From positions 1 through 43,599 of the forward strand of contig SLDT01000238.1 of the NCBI GenBank assembly GCA_007125125.1: a DNA stretch of 43,599 bases, written 5' to 3'. Positions 35,201 to 43,599 of this stretch are shown here, in pieces (the first letter of the stretch is position 1; each line of letters begins with the position of its first letter). The notes under the pieces are model-generated. The model was not told the DNA's origin. It was given only the letters and a program-made list of their open reading frames with translations, and made no database searches. The position numbers and the translations under genes are program-made. The stretch is from Gemmatimonadota bacterium. Lineage in GTDB: Bacteria; Gemmatimonadota; Gemmatimonadetes; Longimicrobiales; Gaopeijiaceae.

Positions 35201-35349
35201 CGATCGCCCTGACGGGGACCCTCATCCTCTCGATCCCGATGGCCTGCTTCGTCCTGCCGGGCGTGGCGGCCTCGCTCGCGCGCGATCAGCCCCCGCCGTC
35301 GTCGGTGTCCGAGGCCCGCGTTGCCGACGAGGGTGCATCCTTGACATAG
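32224..35349 (+). CDS. RND-family inner-membrane efflux transporter
   Basis: 1041 residues, the usual AcrB-like size, from GTG at 32224. Twelve membrane spans in two halves with two large periplasmic loops, for example ALSIVIFLAVVALVRMPLLL (TM1), LLSVGLGLDYAIIYFDRLDR (TM4), LLIAVGIVANNVILVLSEAQ (TM10). It exports a substrate, not predictable here, using the proton gradient. By eye, of the AcrB proton-relay residues Asp407/Asp408/Lys940 only the first is kept (Asp413; the next is Tyr414, and TM10 has Asn928 at the Lys position). Such TM10 Asn forms occur in other RND branches. Its last 64 nt overlap the convergent S9 gene. Confidence 0.92.
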   Translation: MSGGDPTDGPRLSVVGTLSERRMAVGAALSIVIFLAVVALVRMPLLLLPEIHYPQVRVIADLPGQTSGVIEESVNEPIEAALFGVLGIVRMESRSGDGRSYIDLFFAPGYDLDRGLQDVTQAVQRAQGQIPAGIPEPRIFAVATNQEPVMHLAFGSPTLTPDQIRRRLRSNLLPRLREIPGVQAVHMGREEVPELVAEVDPHRMEAVGVSLDAIEAVLLQATAAPVSGAIRSAGFEGVVVLEGNIWDPARLMERPVPAADGATTVPLGEVVALHRAPSEDRLRVRLDGRPAVLVSVQRSPQAHSLRMASAVRDAMDEVLASSAMGDIEGSLVFDDSRVTRSAVISVITAAVGGAILAILLLLLTLRNRRHTPLVALLVGSSLAATIIVLTAMGQSLNLLTLAGLLLSVGLGLDYAIIYFDRLDRIGPTVKDAHLQAMRDVFGPLLGALLTTVAAVLPFLLVQGAVALLFRPLIWTVVIAAIASFAIAVLVLPVFARVHGSNEASQGKAVLQLQPREPWFRPRHPLVSWGLLAGVAIVLVIGGRALAFEVLPVVDDGFVTVRLAHPAGVTIDEMDRATREAEGALATLPGTSAIFTTVGGYFREGLPAFRPGTADFMVRVDAEEAGDSRAWAAEARQALGGLGVPGLRASVTPPQIRGVRTRLSDADLVVVLTRDDGDLLALGEVESEVLERLRSVRGLVDVQRMRGGVSPRWLAEPRVEFLAAHGIAPTDLERTVAYALEGKVLRQRMSGGEPLALRARFDRRWSGDPGGLQEARVPTGNGSSVALQDLANFRLVEEPTHIERRDGQRVVRVAGQLDPAGPGATAVGRAVREALAEADLPEGIGWWLEGELDAVRETSRTFGIALLLALTIVFALLVIQYGSLALALSGLLVIPLSGAGAIVLLALLSRPLDAMVLAGLLIAVGIVANNVILVLSEAQHAARREAGTSLSDGLRRAARDRFRPITLTVLSTVIGMSPLLLGGAEVFGLLQPLAIALTGTLILSIPMACFVLPGVAASLARDQPPPSSVSEARVADEGASLT

Positions 35350-37829
35350 TGGTCGAACCATTCGATCCAGCGCGCCCACATGTCGAGATTGTTCTCGATC
35401 GCGCGCGGGGTGTGCGACTCGTAGGGGTACATGTAGAGCACCGCGTCCTTGCCGAGGTTCGTGAGGGCGTGGATGAGCCGCTCCGACTGCATCGGCCAGG
35501 TCCCCGTGTTGTTGTCGTCGGCCCCGTGGTAGAGGAGGAGCGGCGTCTCGATCTGGTGCGCGTGGAAGAAGGGGGAGATCGCCGCGTAGGTGTGCGGCGC
35601 CTCCCAGAAGGTGCGGCGCTCGGCCTGGAAGCCCGCCGGGGTGAGGGTCCGGTTGTAGGCCCCGTGACCCGCGATTCCCGCGCGGAAGAAGGGGGAGTGC
35701 GCCAGGAAGTTCACCGTGGCGAAGGCGCCGTAGGAGTGCCCCCCGTGCCCGATCCGCTCGATGTCGACATGCCCCAGCTCGTCCGTCGCCCGGATCGCCG
35801 CGTACATCGCGTCGAGCATGTTTGCCATGTAGGTGTCGTTGTAGTTCTCCCCGATGATCGGGATGTCGGGGTCGACGACCGCGTACCCCTGGCTCAGCCA
35901 GATGTCGGACCAGCGCAGCCAGGTCACATGGTGGAAGGCATTCCGGTTCCGGGCACGGATCGCGGCCTGTTCATACCCCTCGGCCGTCGTGTACTCTCGC
36001 GGGTAGGTCCAGAAGATCGCGGGGACCCGGGTCCCGGGGGTGTAGTCCGTGGGGAGGGAGATGCGGGCCTGGACCTCGACCCCGTCACGGCGGGCGAAGG
36101 AGAAGTCGATGCGTTCGGCGGCGGTGAGCTCGGGAAAGGGATCGACGTTGTTCGTCAGGTTCTCGAGGCCCGCGAGGGAGCCGCCTCGCTCCCAGAGCCA
36201 GGAGTCCGGGAAGGTCGTGCGCGACTCGCGCTGCACCGTCATCCGGGTGTAGTCGGGGTCGAGGGCGACGAGGGGTCGGTCCCAGGAGTCGCGCGAGCCC
36301 TCGAAGATGCGATCGAGGGTGCCGTCGGCGAGGGTGACCGCGTCGACGAAGGGCTGCGGGCGGAAGTCGGCCCGGAAGCCCGCGCCCTCGAGGTAGACGG
36401 TCGAGGCGTCGGACGAGAGGACGAGGTGGGGGATCCCGTTCGAGGTCGAGGCGGTGACGAGGGTGCCGGTGAGCTCGAGGGGGTCGGCCCCCGTGCGGAG
36501 CTCGATCACCTCGCGCTCGACCGGCTCCTCGGCCGTGAGGTCGAAGTGGAGGAGCATCGTGCGGTTGCCCCGGCTCCCCGTCGCGACCGCATGGCCGGCG
36601 GTGAGGTCGTAGCGGACGTTCTGGAGGCGGCCCTCGGCGCGCACGAGGGCGCGGGCGGTGGCGGTGTCGAAGGGGGCCTCGAGGAGCATGATCTCGTCTC
36701 GACCCTGGCCCGCGTCGCGCAGGTAGTGGAGCCCGGCGCCGTCGGGTCGCCAGGCGACGTCGCGGCCGATGCTCGAGGCCGGGGGCTGGTCGCTCCCGTC
36801 GCGCAGGGGGGTGTAGGAGAGCTCGAGGAGCTCCTCGCCGGTGGCCCGGTCCAGGATCACGGTGCGCCGCGGAAAGCTTCCCCAGGCGGTGATGAAGGAG
36901 AAGGGGCGCTCGAGGCGGGTGGCGAGGATGTGGTGGCCGTCCGGGCTGAGCGAGATCGAGGTGTACATCCCGGGCTCCCCTATGTGGCGGGGTGGGTGGC
37001 CGGGGACGAGTTCGACGATCCGGCTCGTCGTGTAGTGCTCGAAGAGGGTGGCGTCGTGCTCCGTCCCGAGGAGGTTCGGGAGGGTGCGCGAGCTGACCGG
37101 CCGGTCGCGGGTGCGCTGGATCCCCGGGCTCGTGGGCACGGCCGGCTGGGCGGGCTCCGCCCCCCGCTCCGGCGGCACGAGGAGGGTGATGACGCTCCCC
37201 TCGGCGGTCCACTGGAGCATGTCGGAGGCACGGCTCCCCTGGCCGGCCGCCCGTGTCCCGATCGTGGCCATCACGCGGGCGTCGGAGAGCGCTCGGGCGC
37301 TCGCGGTTCCCGTCTCGGCGGTCCAGACCTCGGTCCCCTCCCGGAGGTGGGCGAGAAAGGCGACGCGGTCGCCCTCGGGCGACCACATGAAGTCGCTCGC
37401 GAAGGCCCCCTCCGGGAGTTCCACCTCGCGGAAGGTGCGGTCGGCGAGGGAGTAGAAGCGGAAGCCATGAATCCCGTACGTGTCGAGGTGCCAGAGCCGG
37501 TCGGTGCGGGGGCGCAGCTCGAGCTCGGCCAGGCGATACGTCGTTTCGGCCATCCGCTCGAGGGTCGAGAGCTCGGTCGAGAGGGGGACGAGGAAGTGGT
37601 TCCCGTCCGGGCTCAGGTTCTCGAGCACGGCTCGGTTCGTGTCTCGCTCGAAGAACTCCTGGACCTGCGCGGGTGGGAGCACGTATCCCTCCTCCGGCTG
37701 GAAGCGCTCGACCTGCTCAGCGGCGAGGCCGAGTACCGCTGCCGGCGTCGGGAGAGCGGGAGCCGCCGCGAGGAGCAGTGCTGCTGCGAGGAGGAGGGTG
37801 GGGCGGAGTCGAAGGTACGGGCTCGGCAT
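35286..37829 (-). CDS. Exported prolyl-oligopeptidase-family (S9) serine peptidase
   Basis: 847 residues. Signal peptide (about 1-30), an N-terminal beta-propeller built of WSPEGDRVAFLAH-, SLSPDGHHILATR- and AWRPDGAGLHYLR-like blades, and a C-terminal alpha/beta-hydrolase. The catalytic triad fits Ser in GHGGHSYGAFA (about 698), Asp in YHGADDNNTGT (about 770) and His in YESHTPR (about 807). It would cleave short peptides in the periplasm. Its stop lies inside the end of the RND gene on the other strand. Upstream is a roughly 210-nt divergent gap to the RidA gene. Confidence 0.9.
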   Translation of the reverse strand: MPSPYLRLRPTLLLAAALLLAAAPALPTPAAVLGLAAEQVERFQPEEGYVLPPAQVQEFFERDTNRAVLENLSPDGNHFLVPLSTELSTLERMAETTYRLAELELRPRTDRLWHLDTYGIHGFRFYSLADRTFREVELPEGAFASDFMWSPEGDRVAFLAHLREGTEVWTAETGTASARALSDARVMATIGTRAAGQGSRASDMLQWTAEGSVITLLVPPERGAEPAQPAVPTSPGIQRTRDRPVSSRTLPNLLGTEHDATLFEHYTTSRIVELVPGHPPRHIGEPGMYTSISLSPDGHHILATRLERPFSFITAWGSFPRRTVILDRATGEELLELSYTPLRDGSDQPPASSIGRDVAWRPDGAGLHYLRDAGQGRDEIMLLEAPFDTATARALVRAEGRLQNVRYDLTAGHAVATGSRGNRTMLLHFDLTAEEPVEREVIELRTGADPLELTGTLVTASTSNGIPHLVLSSDASTVYLEGAGFRADFRPQPFVDAVTLADGTLDRIFEGSRDSWDRPLVALDPDYTRMTVQRESRTTFPDSWLWERGGSLAGLENLTNNVDPFPELTAAERIDFSFARRDGVEVQARISLPTDYTPGTRVPAIFWTYPREYTTAEGYEQAAIRARNRNAFHHVTWLRWSDIWLSQGYAVVDPDIPIIGENYNDTYMANMLDAMYAAIRATDELGHVDIERIGHGGHSYGAFATVNFLAHSPFFRAGIAGHGAYNRTLTPAGFQAERRTFWEAPHTYAAISPFFHAHQIETPLLLYHGADDNNTGTWPMQSERLIHALTNLGKDAVLYMYPYESHTPRAIENNLDMWARWIEWFDHYVKDAPSSATRASDTDDGGG

Positions 37830-38038
37830 GGGGCGTTCCGGGTGGTTCGGGGTCGAACGAATGTCGGGCGGAGGACGGGGTGTCGATCCAAGGTAGGGCC
37901 CGACTCCCTGTCATGCGAGCAGGTGGGTGCGCGATCGGCCCTCGCTCACTATGTTGTTCCGCTCGAATCCGCGGGGGCGACCGGCAGGCGGTCTCCCCGC
38001 GCACGGAACCAAGCCGACCCGAACAGGAGCCGCCCGCG

Positions 38039-38515
38039 ATGTCGAATCGTCCTGCCCTCGCCCTTCCCACTGCTCTGGCCATGGCCACCCTCATCGCACT
38101 CGGCGCGTGCCAGCCCGACATCCCCGAGCCGGTCGACCTGGGTCCGCAGAAGGAGGCGATCGACCACCGGGGCGAGCGTGGCGAGGATGTCACAGGGCTC
38201 TTCTCTCCGATCGTGCGGAGCGGGCACCTCTACTTTCTCTCCGGCGTGATCGGGCGTAGCCAGGACGGGGACATCGGGGCCGCCACCCGGCAGGCCATGG
38301 ACGGGATCCGGACCCGCCTCGAGGCGGTCGACCTCACGATGGACGACCTCGTGAAGTGCACGGTCTTCCTCGTGGACATGGCCGACTACAACGGGATGAA
38401 CGCCGCCTACCGGGAGTACTTCCCGACGAACCCCCCGGCGCGCTCCGCGCTCGCCGTGCGAGAGCTCCCCGCCTCGGCCCAGGTCGAGGTCGAGTGCATC
38501 GGCGCGGCGCGCTGA
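38039..38515 (+). CDS. Exported RidA/YjgF-family lipoprotein
   Basis: 158 residues: signal peptide with ALGAC lipobox (Cys at about 24), then a complete RidA fold. RidA proteins hydrolyse reactive enamines and imines, typically from amino-acid breakdown, to keto acids and ammonia. The key Arg is in PARSALAVREL, and the closing segment reads AQVEVECIGAAR, as in active RidA. Most RidA proteins are cytoplasmic; the signal peptide here puts this one outside. AGGAG lies 9 nt before the ATG. The next gene, an exported amine oxidase, could supply its imine substrate. Confidence 0.88.
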   Translation: MSNRPALALPTALAMATLIALGACQPDIPEPVDLGPQKEAIDHRGERGEDVTGLFSPIVRSGHLYFLSGVIGRSQDGDIGAATRQAMDGIRTRLEAVDLTMDDLVKCTVFLVDMADYNGMNAAYREYFPTNPPARSALAVRELPASAQVEVECIGAAR

Positions 38516-38543
38516 GGCCCCCCCGGACCAGGAGCGCGAGACC

Positions 38544-39923
38544 GTGAGCCAGCACGAGCACGATTCGAAGACGCCCCCCCCTGCCGAGCCTTCGTCCACC
38601 GGCCCGGACGACACCCCCGACGACGCCCGGACGAGCGCGCAGCTCGACCGCCGCAGCTTTCTCAAGGCCACCGGCCTCGGGGCGGGCACCCTCGCCCTCG
38701 CCGGCCCGATGGGCGGGCTCCTGGCCGGGTGCGAGGCGGGCCCCGCCCCGGGACCGGGTGCCGGCCGCGACGTCGTCGTGATCGGCGCGGGGGCCTTCGG
38801 GGTCTGGACCGCCTTCTACCTCCAGGAGATGGGAGCGCGGGTGACCCTCGTCGACCTCTATGGCCCCGGGAACTCCCGGGCGACCTCGGGTGACGAGACG
38901 CGCGGCATCCGCACCTCCTACCAGGGGCGGGAACTCTGGACCCGGTGGGCGGCCCGCGCGATCGAGCGGTGGGAGGCCTTCGACGAGGAGTGGGCCCCCT
39001 CGATGGGCTCGCCCCTCTTCTACCGGACCGGTGACCTGATCTTCCGTGACACGACCGAGGGCATGATCGACGGGGTCATGGAGCTCTGGCGGGAGCAGGG
39101 GCGCGAGCACGAGCTCCTCACGGTCGACGAGGCGCGCTACCGCTGGCCCCAGTTCGACCTCGACGGGATCGAGGTCGCCCTCTACGAGCCGGGTGCCGGG
39201 GTTGCCCGCGCCCGCGCCGCCTGCCGACGCGTCGCCCACATCGTCCAGATGCGGGGCGGCGAGATCGTCGTCGGCCGCGCCACTCCCGGTGCCTCGCAGG
39301 GCGGAAGGCTCCAGGAGGTGGTCATCGACGGGGGCGAGCGCACCCTCGGAGCCGAGCTCTTCGTCTTTGCCCTCGGCCCCTGGTTCCCGAGCGCCTTCCC
39401 CGAGATCATGGGTGACGTCATCCGGATCCCGATGGGGAATGTGATCTACTACGGCACCCCGCCCGGGGACCGTCGCTTCGAGCACCCGAACATCCCGAGC
39501 TGGAACTTCGCCGGGGTGACGGGCTGGCCTGCCCTCCCCCCCGACTACCGGGGCTTCCGGGTCCGGACCGGGGGCCAGACGGGCGAGAACCCCGACGTCT
39601 CGAACCGCTGGGTTCCGGAAGAGGGGCTCGAGCGCCCCCGCAACGTCCTGCGGCAGCGCTTCCCGGGACTCGCCGACCAGCCGATCGTCGAAACCCGGGC
39701 CTGCCACTACGAGTCGAGTGCAACGCGCGACTGGATCATCGACCTGCACCCCGACTACGAGAACGCCTGGTTTGCGGGCGGGGGCTCGGCCGAGGGCTTC
39801 AAGTTCGGCCCCATGATCGGGGAGCTCATCGCCTCGCGTGTGATCGGCTCCGACCTCTACGCGGAGCTCGACGACCGATTCCGCCTTGCCCCCCAGATCG
39901 CCGATCAGGAGGCAACCCGTTGA
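38544..39923 (+). CDS. Tat-exported FAD-dependent oxidoreductase, monomeric sarcosine oxidase-like
   Basis: 459 residues from GTG at 38544 (GGAG at 38531-38534). A twin-arginine signal (DRRSFLKATGLGAG, about 36-49) ends in LLAGC, so a Tat-dependent lipoprotein is likely. FAD-binding VVIGAGAFGVW follows. The C-terminal block ETRACHYESSATRDWIIDLHP then GFKFGPMIGELIA aligns with monomeric sarcosine oxidase, whose FAD is covalently bound to a Cys; Cys387 holds that position. The region that carries the oxygen-activating Lys in that enzyme reads GFRVRTGGQTG, perhaps with Arg instead. It probably oxidises an N-methyl or other amino acid to an imine outside the cytoplasm. Stop overlaps the cstA start. 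Confidence 0.85.
   Translation: MSQHEHDSKTPPPAEPSSTGPDDTPDDARTSAQLDRRSFLKATGLGAGTLALAGPMGGLLAGCEAGPAPGPGAGRDVVVIGAGAFGVWTAFYLQEMGARVTLVDLYGPGNSRATSGDETRGIRTSYQGRELWTRWAARAIERWEAFDEEWAPSMGSPLFYRTGDLIFRDTTEGMIDGVMELWREQGREHELLTVDEARYRWPQFDLDGIEVALYEPGAGVARARAACRRVAHIVQMRGGEIVVGRATPGASQGGRLQEVVIDGGERTLGAELFVFALGPWFPSAFPEIMGDVIRIPMGNVIYYGTPPGDRRFEHPNIPSWNFAGVTGWPALPPDYRGFRVRTGGQTGENPDVSNRWVPEEGLERPRNVLRQRFPGLADQPIVETRACHYESSATRDWIIDLHPDYENAWFAGGGSAEGFKFGPMIGELIASRVIGSDLYAELDDRFRLAPQIADQEATR
39907..39912 (+). promoter_or_regulatory. Ribosome site for the cstA TTG start
   Basis: A perfect AGGAGG, 7 nt before TTG at 39920. The TTG overlaps the stop of the oxidase gene (TTGA), which supports translational coupling and this start. 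Confidence 0.75.
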
Positions 39924-41608
39924 ACGCGATTCTCCTCATGCTGCTGGGGCTGGCGGCCTTCGCCCTCGGCTTCATCTTCTACTCCCGCTTCATCGCGGAG
40001 CGGATCTTCCGGCTCGACCCGAACTTCGAGACCCCGGCCCATGCGCAGGAAGACGGGGTCGACTTCGTGCCGACCAACCGGTGGGTCCTCCTCGGTCACC
40101 ACTTCACCTCGGTGGCCGGTGCGGCGCCGATCGTGGGGCCCGCGATCGCGGTCGTATGGGGGTGGGTCCCCGCCTTTCTATGGGTCGTCTTCGGCACGGT
40201 CTTCTTCGCCGGGGTCCATGACGCGGGCGCCCTCTGGGCAAGCGTGCGCAATCGGGGTCAGTCGATCGGGGCTCTCACGGAGTCGGTCGTGGGGGCGCGG
40301 GCGCGTTCCCTCTTCATGATTGTGATCTTCCTCCTCCTCCTGATGGTGAACGCGGTCTTCGCCATCGTGATCGCGCAGCTCTTCGTCGGCTTCCCGAGCA
40401 GCGTGATCCCCTCCTGGTTCGTCATCGCCGTTGCCCTCGGAATCGGCTGGATCCTCTACCGCAAGGGCGTCCCGCTACTCTGGCCCTCCGTCGTGGCCCT
40501 GATCCTCCTGTACGCCTCGATGGTCGTCGGCGAATTCGTCCCCGTGGCACTTCCGGAGACGGTGGCAGGACTTGGCTCGCCCGCGGTCTGGGTGCTCATC
40601 CTCTTTGCCTACGCGGCGGTCGCCTCGCTCCTCCCCGTCTGGATGCTCCTGCAGCCCCGCGACTACATCAACGGGCTCCAGCTCCTGATCGGACTCGGAA
40701 TCTTCTTCGCGGCCGTGCTCCTGGCGAACCCCACGATCGTGGCGCCTCCCCTGAACGAGGCGCTCCCCGACGGGGTGCCCCCCCTGATACCCCTCCTCTT
40801 CGTGACGATTGCCTGCGGGGCCATCTCGGGCTTCCACGGCCTCGTTGCGTCGGGGACGACCTCGAAGCAGCTCGCGAACGAGAAGGACGTCCGTATCGTC
40901 GGATACCTGGGCGCCACCGGGGAGGGGGCCCTTGCACTCGCCGCGATCATCGCCTGCACCGCGGGCTTCGCGACCCTCGTCGAGTGGGAGGCCTTCTACT
41001 CCTCCTTTGCCGCCGGGGGCGTTCCCGCCTTCGTGCAGGGAGGTGGGCTCATCATCTCGCAGGGGCTCGGGCTCCCGGTCTACTTCGGGGAGACCCTCCT
41101 CGCGGTCATGGCCGTCCTCTTCGCCGCGACGACGATGGACACCGGGGTCCGCCTCCAGCGCTACATCATCCAGGAGTGGGGCGTCATCTACAAAGTCCCG
41201 GCGCTCACCGGCCGCGGGATCTCGACCTTCATCGCAGTCGCCACCTGCGTCGCCCTGGCCTTCGGCGCCGGCGGGGGCGCGGGCACTGGCGGGCTCGCGA
41301 TCTGGCCCCTCTTCGGGACCACGAACCAGCTCCTCGCGGGGCTCACACTCCTGGTGCTGAGCGTCTTCCTCATGAAGAAGGGACGGCCGACGGTCTACAC
41401 CCTCGTACCCATGGCCTTCCTCCTCGTGATGACGATTCTCGCCCTCCTCGTGCAGCTCGCGCAGTTTTGGCGGGATGGCAGGTACTTCCTCGTCTTCATG
41501 GACCTCGTGATCCTCGTCGTCACGATCTGGGTTGCCCTCGAGGCACTCGGTGCCCTCCAGAGGGCGCGGCGTGATGGCCCGGACCGCGAGACCGCGGAGG
41601 TCGCCTGA
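39920..41608 (+). CDS. cstA: CstA-family transporter (carbon starvation protein)
   Basis: 562 residues from a TTG start. Many membrane spans. Family landmarks include the N-terminal DGVDFVPTNRWVLLGHHFTSVAGAAPIVGP, TVFFAGVHDAG, SGFHGLVASGTTSKQLANEKD, AATTMDTGVRLQRYI and WPLFGTTNQLLAGL. CstA and its relative BtsT of E. coli take up pyruvate, and CstA has also been linked to peptide uptake. The genes before it encode an exported amine oxidase and an exported RidA, which could make a keto acid for it. The downstream small-protein gene starts 22 nt after its stop. The protein is shorter than the roughly 700-residue E. coli CstA. Confidence 0.93.
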   Translation: MNAILLMLLGLAAFALGFIFYSRFIAERIFRLDPNFETPAHAQEDGVDFVPTNRWVLLGHHFTSVAGAAPIVGPAIAVVWGWVPAFLWVVFGTVFFAGVHDAGALWASVRNRGQSIGALTESVVGARARSLFMIVIFLLLLMVNAVFAIVIAQLFVGFPSSVIPSWFVIAVALGIGWILYRKGVPLLWPSVVALILLYASMVVGEFVPVALPETVAGLGSPAVWVLILFAYAAVASLLPVWMLLQPRDYINGLQLLIGLGIFFAAVLLANPTIVAPPLNEALPDGVPPLIPLLFVTIACGAISGFHGLVASGTTSKQLANEKDVRIVGYLGATGEGALALAAIIACTAGFATLVEWEAFYSSFAAGGVPAFVQGGGLIISQGLGLPVYFGETLLAVMAVLFAATTMDTGVRLQRYIIQEWGVIYKVPALTGRGISTFIAVATCVALAFGAGGGAGTGGLAIWPLFGTTNQLLAGLTLLVLSVFLMKKGRPTVYTLVPMAFLLVMTILALLVQLAQFWRDGRYFLVFMDLVILVVTIWVALEALGALQRARRDGPDRETAEVA

Positions 41609-41630: not shown

Positions 41631-41897
41631 GTGACTCCCCCCGGCGGCCGCCTCTCGCGGGCGCTCGAGCTCCTCCAGGAGTTCTACGAGGGCCGTCACC
41701 GCGCGGCCCTCGCGCGTGAGAAGCGCGAGGAGGACGACCTCTTCATGCTCCTCGTCTTCTCCGAACTCATGGGGATTCCGAGCCCCGCCGGCTACTACAC
41801 CCTCGAGCTCCTTCCCATCCTCTACGAGGACTTCCACGCCTGGCACCTCCGGATGGGGATGGAACACTCTCCCCTCGACCACATCCAGTGCTGCTGA
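41631..41897 (+). CDS. Small CstA-associated protein ending in Cys-Cys
   Basis: 88 residues from GTG at 41631, preceded by a G-rich stretch. No signal peptide. An amphipathic N-terminal helix (RLSRALELLQEFYEGRHR), an acidic KREEDDL segment, a hydrophobic mid-helix (FMLLVFSELMGIPSPAGYY), and LLPILYEDFHAWHLRMGMEHSP lead to DHIQCC, with both cysteines as the final residues. It resembles the small family that NCBI calls cory-CC-star, which I recall being found beside CstA and ArsA-like ATPase genes; I could not confirm this. The C-terminal CC may bind metal or be a thiol or lipid-attachment tail. It overlaps the ATPase gene by 10 nt. Confidence 0.8.
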   Translation: MTPPGGRLSRALELLQEFYEGRHRAALAREKREEDDLFMLLVFSELMGIPSPAGYYTLELLPILYEDFHAWHLRMGMEHSPLDHIQCC

Positions 41898-42934
41898 CGC
41901 CGGAAGCCCTCGACCGCCCGATCCTCTTCGTCGGGGGGAAGGGGGGCGTGGGCAAGACCACCACAGCGGGCGCCCTCGCCCTCGCCGCCGCGGACGAGGG
42001 GCGACGGGTCCTCGTCGTCTCGACCGATCCGGCCCATTCCCTCGCCGACCTCTTCGGGGTCCGGATCGGGGGGCGCGTCCGGACGATCCGTCCCGGCCTC
42101 GACGCCCTCGAGATCGACCCCGACGAGCAGGTCGACCACTACCTGCAGACGGTGCGCGAGAACCTCAAGTCCTTCGTGCGTCCCGCGATGTACGCCGAGA
42201 TCGACCGCCAGATCGCCCTCGCGCGTCATTCGCCGGGTGCGGTCGAGGCCGCCCTCCTCGAGCGGGTGGCCGAGCTCATCGAGTCGGCGGGGACGACGCA
42301 TGACCGGGTGATCTTCGACACCGCCCCGACCGGTCACACCCTCCGGCTCCTCGCGCTCCCGGGGATCATGCAGGCGTGGACCGAGGGACTCCTGCGGAGC
42401 AGGGAGCGCTCCGACCGGCTTGGCGAGGGGCTCGGCCGCCTCGAGGCCCGGCGTGCCACCCGGGAGGCGAAGGAGGAGCGGGAGGCACCGACCGGCGACG
42501 AGCTCTCCTGGTTCGAGACCCCGGACGAGGGCCCCTCCGACCCGCGCAGGCGGCGCATCCGGGAGATCCTCCTCGAGCGACGTCGGGGGTTCGCGCGGGC
42601 CCGGCGCGCCCTCCTCGATCCGGAGCGCACCGCCTTTGTCCTCGTGCTCACGCCGGAACGCCTCCCCATTCTCGAGAGCGCCCGGGCCCTGGCCGCCCTC
42701 CGGGACCACGAGGTCCCGGTCGCGGGGCTCGTCGTGAACCGGGTGCTCCCCGAGGAGGCCGGGGGGAGCTTCCTCGAGCGGCGGCGCGAACAGGAGGCCC
42801 GCCACCTCGAGGAGATCGAAGGGGAGTTCCGCGGGGTCCCCCGGATCCGGGTGCCCCTCCTTCCGGGCGATGTGGAAGGGCTCGAGGCGGTCCGCACGAT
42901 TGCGGACCACCTCATGCGCCCCCGAGGCGAGTGA
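41888..42934 (+). CDS. ArsA/GET3-family P-loop ATPase
   Basis: 348 residues from a GTG start at 41888, within the final codons of the CC-tail gene. The deviant Walker A with a signature Lys is GGKGGVGKTTT (16-26), switch I is STDPAHS (45-51), and switch II is DTAPTGHTLRLL (about 144-155), the pattern of TRC40/GET3 and ArsA. The adenine-loop PLLPGDVEG is near the C-terminus. The chain has no cysteines, so neither the GET3 zinc CxxC nor the ArsA arsenite thiols exist. It is therefore neither a classic arsenical pump ATPase nor a typical GET3. Coupling to the CC-tail gene suggests that protein is its partner. Confidence 0.9.
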   Translation: MLLTPEALDRPILFVGGKGGVGKTTTAGALALAAADEGRRVLVVSTDPAHSLADLFGVRIGGRVRTIRPGLDALEIDPDEQVDHYLQTVRENLKSFVRPAMYAEIDRQIALARHSPGAVEAALLERVAELIESAGTTHDRVIFDTAPTGHTLRLLALPGIMQAWTEGLLRSRERSDRLGEGLGRLEARRATREAKEEREAPTGDELSWFETPDEGPSDPRRRRIREILLERRRGFARARRALLDPERTAFVLVLTPERLPILESARALAALRDHEVPVAGLVVNRVLPEEAGGSFLERRREQEARHLEEIEGEFRGVPRIRVPLLPGDVEGLEAVRTIADHLMRPRGE

Positions 42935-42945
42935 GAGGCGCCTCG

Positions 42946-42965
42946 CTCCCCGATCAATCGGGGAG
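42946..42965. terminator. Hairpin between convergent genes
   Basis: Perfect 8-bp stem (42946-42953 with 42958-42965) with a TCAA loop. It lies between the ATPase stop and the last codons of the leftward quinoprotein gene. No T-run follows on either strand, so termination is possible but not certain. Confidence 0.35.
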
Positions 42966-43599
42966 GGCGTAGGCCACGAGTTCGGCGGGGTGCCCCGCCT
43001 GCGCCACGGAAAGGACGATGTACTGGCGTCCCCGGTGCATGTACGTCATCGGGGCGGTGTTCGTCGGAGCGGGGATCTCGATCGTGCCGAGCGTCTCGCC
43101 CGAGCGCTTGTCCACGGCGTGGAAGAGCGGGCGGGCGCCTCGACCCTCGCCGTACATGAGGAGGCTCCCGGTCACGAGCACGGTGGCGTGCGCGCGCTGG
43201 CCCGTGTTTCCGAGATCGACCCCGGCGAGGGCCGGGTGGTTGCGGACGTTGTCCGGGGTGTCTCCGTTCGGAATCCACCAGAGGGTCTCGCCCGTGTTCA
43301 GGTCGATCGCGGTGATCCGTCCGTACGGCGGCTTCCAGAGGGGGAGTCCCTGCGGCCCCGACACGCCTCCCGGACCCCGGGTCACGTAGCGCATATTCGA
43401 CTCCGGGTCGACCTCGGTGCCCGGGATGAGCCGGGGAGCGCTGCATCCCTTGATCGAGGCCACGTAGAGGATCCCGGTCTCCGGGTCGACTGCCGATCCG
43501 CCGGGGATGTTCGCACCCCCGTTCGCGCCGGGACAGTGGATCGCCGCGAGGATTCCCTCGTCCTCGTCGGGGAGGGCGGGAGGATTGAAGAGGGGGCCG
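42954..43599 (-). CDS. PQQ-dependent dehydrogenase-like beta-propeller protein, C-terminal part
   Basis: Only the last 215 residues are inside the window; the start lies beyond 43599. The sequence reads as quinoprotein propeller repeats: GGSAVDPETGILYVASIKG, RITAIDLNTGETLWWIPNGD, NTGQRAHATVLVTGSLLMYG, FHAVDKRSGETLGTIEIP, then TAPMTYMHRGRQYIVLSVAQ, close to the C-terminus of glucose/alcohol quinoprotein dehydrogenases. Such enzymes oxidise sugars or alcohols in the periplasm and pass electrons to quinone or cytochrome. The substrate cannot be told from this part. The gene ends convergently with the ATPase gene, 19 nt away. Confidence 0.82.
   Translation of the reverse strand, partial: GPLFNPPALPDEDEGILAAIHCPGANGGANIPGGSAVDPETGILYVASIKGCSAPRLIPGTEVDPESNMRYVTRGPGGVSGPQGLPLWKPPYGRITAIDLNTGETLWWIPNGDTPDNVRNHPALAGVDLGNTGQRAHATVLVTGSLLMYGEGRGARPLFHAVDKRSGETLGTIEIPAPTNTAPMTYMHRGRQYIVLSVAQAGHPAELVAYALPD

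Follow-up and report, generated by a model that had tools for sequence, protein, structure and literature searches.

An exported RidA, an exported flavoprotein and a CstA-family transporter form a conserved gene module in Gemmatimonadota that suggests deamination outside the cell interior

Work on RidA has treated it as a cytoplasmic protein that protects against reactive imines. The enzyme hydrolyses imines formed by L-amino-acid oxidase, and genes for RidA and Rid3 have been reported in clusters with those for amine oxidases carrying flavin adenine dinucleotide (FAD), the RidA gene adjoining the flavin amine oxidase gene (Niehaus et al. 2015, PMC4433059). In Pseudomonas aeruginosa, the D-amino acid dehydrogenase DadA, an FAD enzyme unable to use O2, releases an imine that is hydrolysed to keto acid and ammonia by DadY, a Rid protein of the Rid2 family encoded in the same operon (PMC9714295). 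Flavin amine "oxidases" with predicted export are also known: NicA2 and Pnao of Pseudomonas putida S16 have been found to be dehydrogenases that use the co-encoded cytochrome c CycN (PMC9396064). As for CstA, pyruvate uptake by the E. coli transporter requires YbdD (PMC5847655). Exported or lipoprotein RidA was described in no title or abstract found in a literature search covering open-licence papers only. Here we analyse contig SLDT01000238.1 of the assembly GCA_007125125.1, a genome of 3.5 Mb in 274 contigs whose relatives are Gemmatimonadota; the window, which is the whole stretch of 43,599 nucleotides analysed, carries a gene for an exported lipoprotein RidA followed by genes for an exported flavoprotein and a CstA-family transporter.

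An earlier sequence-only reading, made by a model, had noted these three genes on one strand, the last two coupled by TTGA. This observation is confirmed, both in the coordinates and + strand of the genes and in the 4-base overlap between the flavoprotein stop and the CstA start, and the arrangement is a real conserved module. The run extends beyond position 41608, up to 42934, with genes for a cory-CC-star protein and an ArsA/Get3 ATPase; the five genes are consecutive, all on the + strand, and neighbours either overlap or lie 28 or 22 bases apart. Their products are read as follows (Tat, twin-arginine translocation; MSOX, monomeric sarcosine oxidase):

38039 to 38515, + strand: exported lipoprotein RidA (Rid family), with lipobox ALGAC and the catalytic Arg kept in a PARS motif
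38544 to 39923, + strand: Tat-exported, lipobox-bearing FAD amine/amino-acid oxidoreductase of MSOX fold, probably a dehydrogenase
39920 to 41608, + strand: CstA-family transporter, whose TTG start overlaps the flavoprotein stop (TTGA)
41631 to 41897, + strand: cory-CC-star protein, with CC at its end, a candidate stand-in for the CstA partner YbdD
41888 to 42934, + strand: ArsA/Get3-family ATPase, member of a conserved CstA-cory-ArsA unit

The enzyme pair, RidA and flavoprotein, recurs in the phylum in two gene layouts, which suggests that deamination may take place outside the cell interior. The first layout, that of the window, was followed through 154 genomes of the order, 73 of which have the flavoprotein at E ≤ 1e-40; a clade was defined as the 13 genomes, from 7 genera, with a flavoprotein identity of 58% or more. 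CstA lies downstream of the flavoprotein on the same strand, within 6.5 kb, in all 13 and directly after it in 11. At L036 the two genes are 3.4 kb apart, with a pyrroloquinoline quinone (PQQ) dehydrogenase and a cytochrome c gene between them, and in G074 the distance is 6.4 kb. In 11 of the 13 genomes, representing 5 genera, the gene immediately before that of the flavoprotein encodes RidA; in 10 of these the arrangement is a single locus, and in G066 it is found on a second contig together with the N-terminal part of the flavoprotein. The arrangement is thus not confined to one genome, and since several other genera retain it at a flavoprotein identity of 58-68%, with varying flanking genes around a persistent core, it goes beyond chance. 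The 12 nearest named relatives carry isolate names that start with CSSed, PLM or LCM; CSSed denotes Cock Soda Lake, we read the other two prefixes as the Cariboo soda-lake mats of Probe Lake and Last Chance Lake, and these relatives appear to be metagenome-assembled genomes from soda lakes.

The second layout is found in another family of the same class, f5 (Gemmatimonas lineage). Of the 30 best loci here, 17 carry a gene for a signal-bearing RidA that lies upstream of the flavoprotein gene and is read from the other strand, a cytochrome c gene frequently lying between the two; this divergent layout spans 5 genera, and the signal sequences of these RidA proteins are readable. At L286 the RidA gene lies on the other side of the flavoprotein gene, and this locus and the group of L287 add to the 17 of 30; some loci come from the same genome (for example L281/L291, L280/L292 and L287/L304), and counts were not summed over them. 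Each layout has a RidA clade of its own, the branch leading to the f5 clade having a support of 100/100 and a length of 0.88, and both stand apart from RidA proteins encoded next to amidohydrolases, a split that is weakly supported (77/82). Mapped on the tree of flavoproteins, the label "RidA adjacent" requires 3 changes against 22 in shuffles; near copies alone would yield such clustering. Without some shared function, a pairing that occurs in two layouts and two families would be hard to account for, and the second layout is the strongest evidence for the pairing of an exported RidA with the flavoprotein, which we regard as well supported by these genomic comparisons.

The RidA of the window (ATG at 38039, stop at 38515, 158 aa) matches Pfam PF01042 above the cut-off (84.8 bits against 27.3, E 6e-24) and falls below that of TIGR00004, the Rid family detoxifying hydrolase (76.8 bits against 106.25), which indicates a divergent Rid protein and not a standard RidA. 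Its N-terminus, MSNRPALALPTALAMATLIALGAC, consists of a hydrophobic stretch followed by a lipobox Cys (ALGAC), and a similar lipoprotein-like signal was present in all 10 clade orthologues read from their genomes, so that the export of RidA as a lipoprotein, proposed from the window only, appears to hold among its relatives. The catalytic Arg is kept, as PARS in the window and as PAR in every compared row except the short L286, although in a few rows the first match may be N-terminal. The flavoprotein (GTG at 38544, 459 aa; DAO domain PF01266, E 3.5e-41) carries the Tat motif DRRSFLK, in line with the Tat export noted before, and after it a lipobox, GGLLAGC, that had escaped the sequence-only reading. 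The Pfam TAT model matches it only weakly, below the cut-off; the 12 clade flavoproteins whose N-terminus can be read all have the RR motif and the lipobox Cys, and among the readable non-clade flavoproteins the lipobox Cys occurs only at L044. The export calls are drawn from motifs and their conservation in relatives; on this basis both enzymes look exported in all clade relatives with readable N-termini. Because the flavoprotein lipobox stands alongside that of RidA, both also look membrane-anchored, and a membrane anchor is probably a feature that they share.

The predicted model of the flavoprotein (predicted local distance difference test score 77.6) has the MSOX fold, with a TM-score of 0.84 to the sarcosine oxidase 7exs; its nearest solved structures are oxidases, and the structural matches include opine dehydrogenase and iminodiacetate oxidase. 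Cys315, the site of covalent FAD attachment, is kept in 122 of 124 homologues, the window included, and Arg49, Arg52, Tyr317 and Lys348 of MSOX are retained. In MSOX, Arg52 and Lys348 bind the substrate carboxylate; their retention therefore makes it likely that the substrate of the flavoprotein carries a carboxylate. Lys265, in turn, is replaced by Arg in 119 of the 124 homologues (13/13 in the clade, 59/64 in the rest of the order, 32/32 in the f5 lineage and 15/15 in a mostly acidobacterial group), and for the window the HMMER and MAFFT alignments agree on the residue at this position. Both PMC7312611 and PMC5459902 cite work that places O2 activation in sarcosine oxidase at Lys265, and a table in PMC7312611 gives a reduced MSOX oxidase activity for K265M. 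The flavoprotein also falls far below the curated cut-offs of TIGR01377 (115 against 480 bits) and PRK11259 (153 against 257 bits), and with Lys265 replaced its identity as a sarcosine oxidase was rejected.

As for the electron acceptor, the gene immediately preceding that of the flavoprotein encodes a small CxxCH cytochrome c in 37 of 81 loci, and in 26 of 34 f5-lineage loci such a gene adjoins that of the flavoprotein; many of these small cytochromes have an export signal of their own. Taken together with the Arg at position 265, the cytochrome c neighbours that are frequent outside the clade make it likelier that the flavoprotein is a dehydrogenase passing electrons to cytochrome c than an oxidase, and the term "oxidase" used in the sequence-only reading is probably wrong.

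The CstA of the window (TTG at 39920, 562 aa; PF02554, E 8.5e-138) is 32% identical to the E. coli protein of 701 aa. The sequence-only reading had named pyruvate import as a function of the family: membership of the CstA family is borne out, but the score against the curated model for the pyruvate/proton symporter CstA (226 bits) lies well under the cut-off of 1188. The cory-CC-star protein passes NF041419 (130.9 bits against a cut-off of 80) and was found in 51 of the 154 genomes; ArsA adjoins it in 30 of the 31 loci read at length, with CstA near in 23 of them, and these two proteins, cory-CC-star and ArsA, are the commonest partners of CstA, more often so than RidA or the flavoprotein. In five genomes of genus g22, CstA stays beside the flavoprotein while cory and ArsA are found on another contig, and in G140, from another family (L068), the order is CstA, cory, ArsA, cytochrome c, flavoprotein. 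The YbdD family (PF04328) was found in none of the 154 genomes, the E. coli and C. glutamicum controls being positive. As cory-CC-star ends in CC in 61 of 61 loci (some genomes being counted in two loci), as does E. coli YbdD, we regard it as a candidate stand-in for YbdD, with an ATPase as partner. The literature search returned no paper on cory-CC-star. A role of CstA in a module with RidA and the flavoprotein is plausible.

Exported RidA is not limited to this gene pair. Read by eye, the 30 best RidA loci in the order include 29 with a hydrophobic stretch and a lipobox Cys, most of them lacking the flavoprotein, and the idea that a lipoprotein RidA is exclusive to the RidA-flavoprotein pair was rejected. 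An Amidohydro_3 protein adjoins the exported RidA in 6 of the 30 (within L148-L166 and L202-L206 among the exported RidA loci), and this direct count led us to discard the notion that most exported RidA genes have such a neighbour. The genome of the window itself holds four Rid-family genes, encoding a cytoplasmic RidA (L207), a second lipoprotein RidA (L208), the RidA of the window and a fourth protein with no obvious signal; its Rid-family loci are listed as L207, L208 and L210. At L155 (1477-2658), an exported RidA is fused to a C-terminal domain that resembles DUF1080 by eye. Threonine-dehydratase-type enzymes dependent on pyridoxal phosphate are a classic source of RidA substrates; genes for enzymes resembling them are convergent with that of an exported RidA at L280 (3654-4610) and L281 (3898-4854), and a similar open reading frame lies directly upstream of RidA on the same strand at L164. 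The enzymes at these loci look cytoplasmic.

We propose, with a probability of about 0.45, that the five-gene run encodes a membrane-anchored deamination system acting outside the cytoplasm, a scheme built on the conserved order of the genes, the export signals, the residues retained and a predicted fold. The flavoenzyme, a Tat-exported lipoprotein with covalent FAD, would oxidise a carboxylate-bearing amine to an imine; the likeliest substrates are primary amino acids or secondary amines whose alpha carbon is the site of cleavage. The electrons of the enzyme would pass to cytochrome c, not to O2. The membrane-anchored RidA would hydrolyse the imine to keto acid and ammonia, and CstA, supported by cory-CC-star and the ArsA ATPase, would import a product of the enzyme pair. 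The imine chemistry, the acceptor and the substrate are the conjectural parts of this scheme, and the cargo of CstA is so above all. Sarcosine-type N-demethylation yields formaldehyde and an amino acid, with no keto acid; since Rid chemistry leads to keto acid and ammonia only when the alpha carbon-nitrogen bond has been oxidised, this reaction does not fit, and sarcosine and N-methyl amino acids, which had been suggested as keto-acid sources, were set aside. Of the shared periplasmic pathway first read from the three genes, the pairing of RidA and flavoprotein stands, in two layouts and two families, but cory-CC-star and ArsA accompany CstA more often than the enzymes do, and exported RidA mostly occurs away from the flavoprotein.

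Several points weigh against this deamination scheme. Imines also hydrolyse spontaneously, and RidA would merely accelerate the step. Two clade loci (L039 and L041) have the flavoprotein and CstA with no adjacent RidA, and three genomes in which a search at E ≤ 1e-40 gave no flavoprotein (G078, G082 and G050) have a RidA of the window clade. CstA-cory-ArsA is also found in many genomes that lack the enzyme pair, so CstA need not serve the enzymes. RidA and the flavoprotein may thus cooperate while CstA, cory-CC-star and ArsA, which in many of the 51 cory-bearing genomes form a unit of their own with no enzyme pair nearby, are co-transcribed with them by chance, as might happen in a general scavenging response, with CstA carrying peptides or pyruvate from other sources. 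The enzyme pair of the f5 lineage, for which no CstA match was found in the flanks searched, agrees with such a separation, but we consider it rather doubtful, given that CstA lies near the flavoprotein in 13 of 13 clade genomes, even in the five g22 genomes with cory and ArsA on another contig, and that the two genes meet again in another family (L068).

It is also conceivable that the flavoprotein is a true oxidase that reduces O2 to H2O2, like sarcosine oxidase, RidA then serving only to shield the envelope against reactive imines, outside any catabolic route. The oxidases among the nearest solved structures and the retained Cys for covalent FAD are in line with this, and no CxxCH gene was seen within 4.5 kb of the flavoprotein in three checked clade members or in the window, where the end of the contig at 43599 bounds the search on that side, which speaks against the proposed acceptor as well; the loss of the O2-activating Lys265 to Arg in 119 of 124 homologues and the frequency of cytochrome c neighbours nevertheless make a true oxidase unlikely. 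We consider equally improbable an action on opine-like or iminodiacetate-like secondary amines that would release the keto acid directly and leave RidA to handle other imines, as those exported RidA proteins that occur apart from the flavoprotein must: opine dehydrogenase and iminodiacetate oxidase do appear among the structural matches, and exported RidA has Amidohydro_3 beside it in 6 of 30 loci and other neighbours elsewhere, but RidA adjoins the flavoprotein in two layouts and about ten genera. That the genes are neighbours by descent alone, with no shared function, is very hard to sustain. Clade members are related, and their shared order is partly inheritance; yet the flanks differ between genera, with the S9 peptidase adjoining the run in g1 and g22 only, whereas the core persists at 58-68% identity; in addition, the RidA-flavoprotein pairing recurs in the second layout.

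Two further features border the run:

37830 to 38038, no strand assigned: divergent intergenic region, predicted from the sequence to hold the promoter of the run, with AGGAG ahead of the RidA ATG
42957 to 43463, - strand: C-terminal piece of a PQQ-type dehydrogenase, a recurrent flavoprotein neighbour that may or may not belong to the module

The PQQ-type dehydrogenase fragment is convergent with the run and lies downstream of it, at the end of the contig (43599); genes of this type, some with a cytochrome c, recur near the flavoprotein in several genera. Upstream and divergent is the gene for the S9 peptidase (35286-37829), found beside the run only in the nearest genera, g1 and g22, whose product weakly resembles lasso peptide isopeptidases (88.7 bits against a cut-off of 400). 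In two f5-lineage genomes a large protein with NHL repeats and DUF885 is encoded directly after the flavoprotein (L281, 7458-10262), its reading frame overlapping the end of that of the flavoprotein.

On a wider scale, it is possible, but by our estimate unlikely, that Gemmatimonadota deaminate an amine or amino acid oxidatively outside the cytoplasm, an exported flavin dehydrogenase delivering electrons to cytochrome c and an exported RidA completing the reaction, and that soda-lake members import the carbon product through a CstA that works without YbdD and relies on cory-CC-star and an ArsA ATPase. If the proposal is true, imine hydrolysis would also be performed outside the cytoplasm, and the many exported RidA lipoproteins of the phylum would gain a testable role. 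Soda-lake bacteria could then release ammonia outside the cell and take in carbon only, and cory-CC-star would be pointed to as a candidate CstA partner in lineages without YbdD.

Compared with the described systems, the locus shares with DadA/DadY the association of a Rid protein with an FAD enzyme, but PMC9714295 makes no mention of the periplasm, DadA belongs to another branch of the DAO family and no CstA is involved. The RidA and Rid3 clusters are alike in gene adjacency and differ in that the main text of PMC4433059 is without signal peptide, periplasm or secretion. NicA2 and Pnao offer a precedent for an exported flavoenzyme coupled to cytochrome c; they belong, however, to the flavin-containing amine oxidase family, act on nicotine and have no RidA described with them. 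With MSOX and N-methyltryptophan oxidase the flavoprotein has in common the fold, Cys315, Arg49, Arg52, Tyr317 and Lys348, whereas, unlike MSOX, it has Arg in place of Lys265 and Glu in place of His345, has not kept His269, is a predicted Tat lipoprotein and scores far below the curated cut-offs. The transport genes recall E. coli, where CstA is likewise followed by a small protein ending in CC (PMC5847655), but here CstA is shorter (562 against 701 aa) and only 32% identical, cory-CC-star takes the place of YbdD and an ArsA ATPase is added. Our verdict is that the module represents a periplasmic variant of the known theme of a Rid protein acting together with an amino-acid dehydrogenase.

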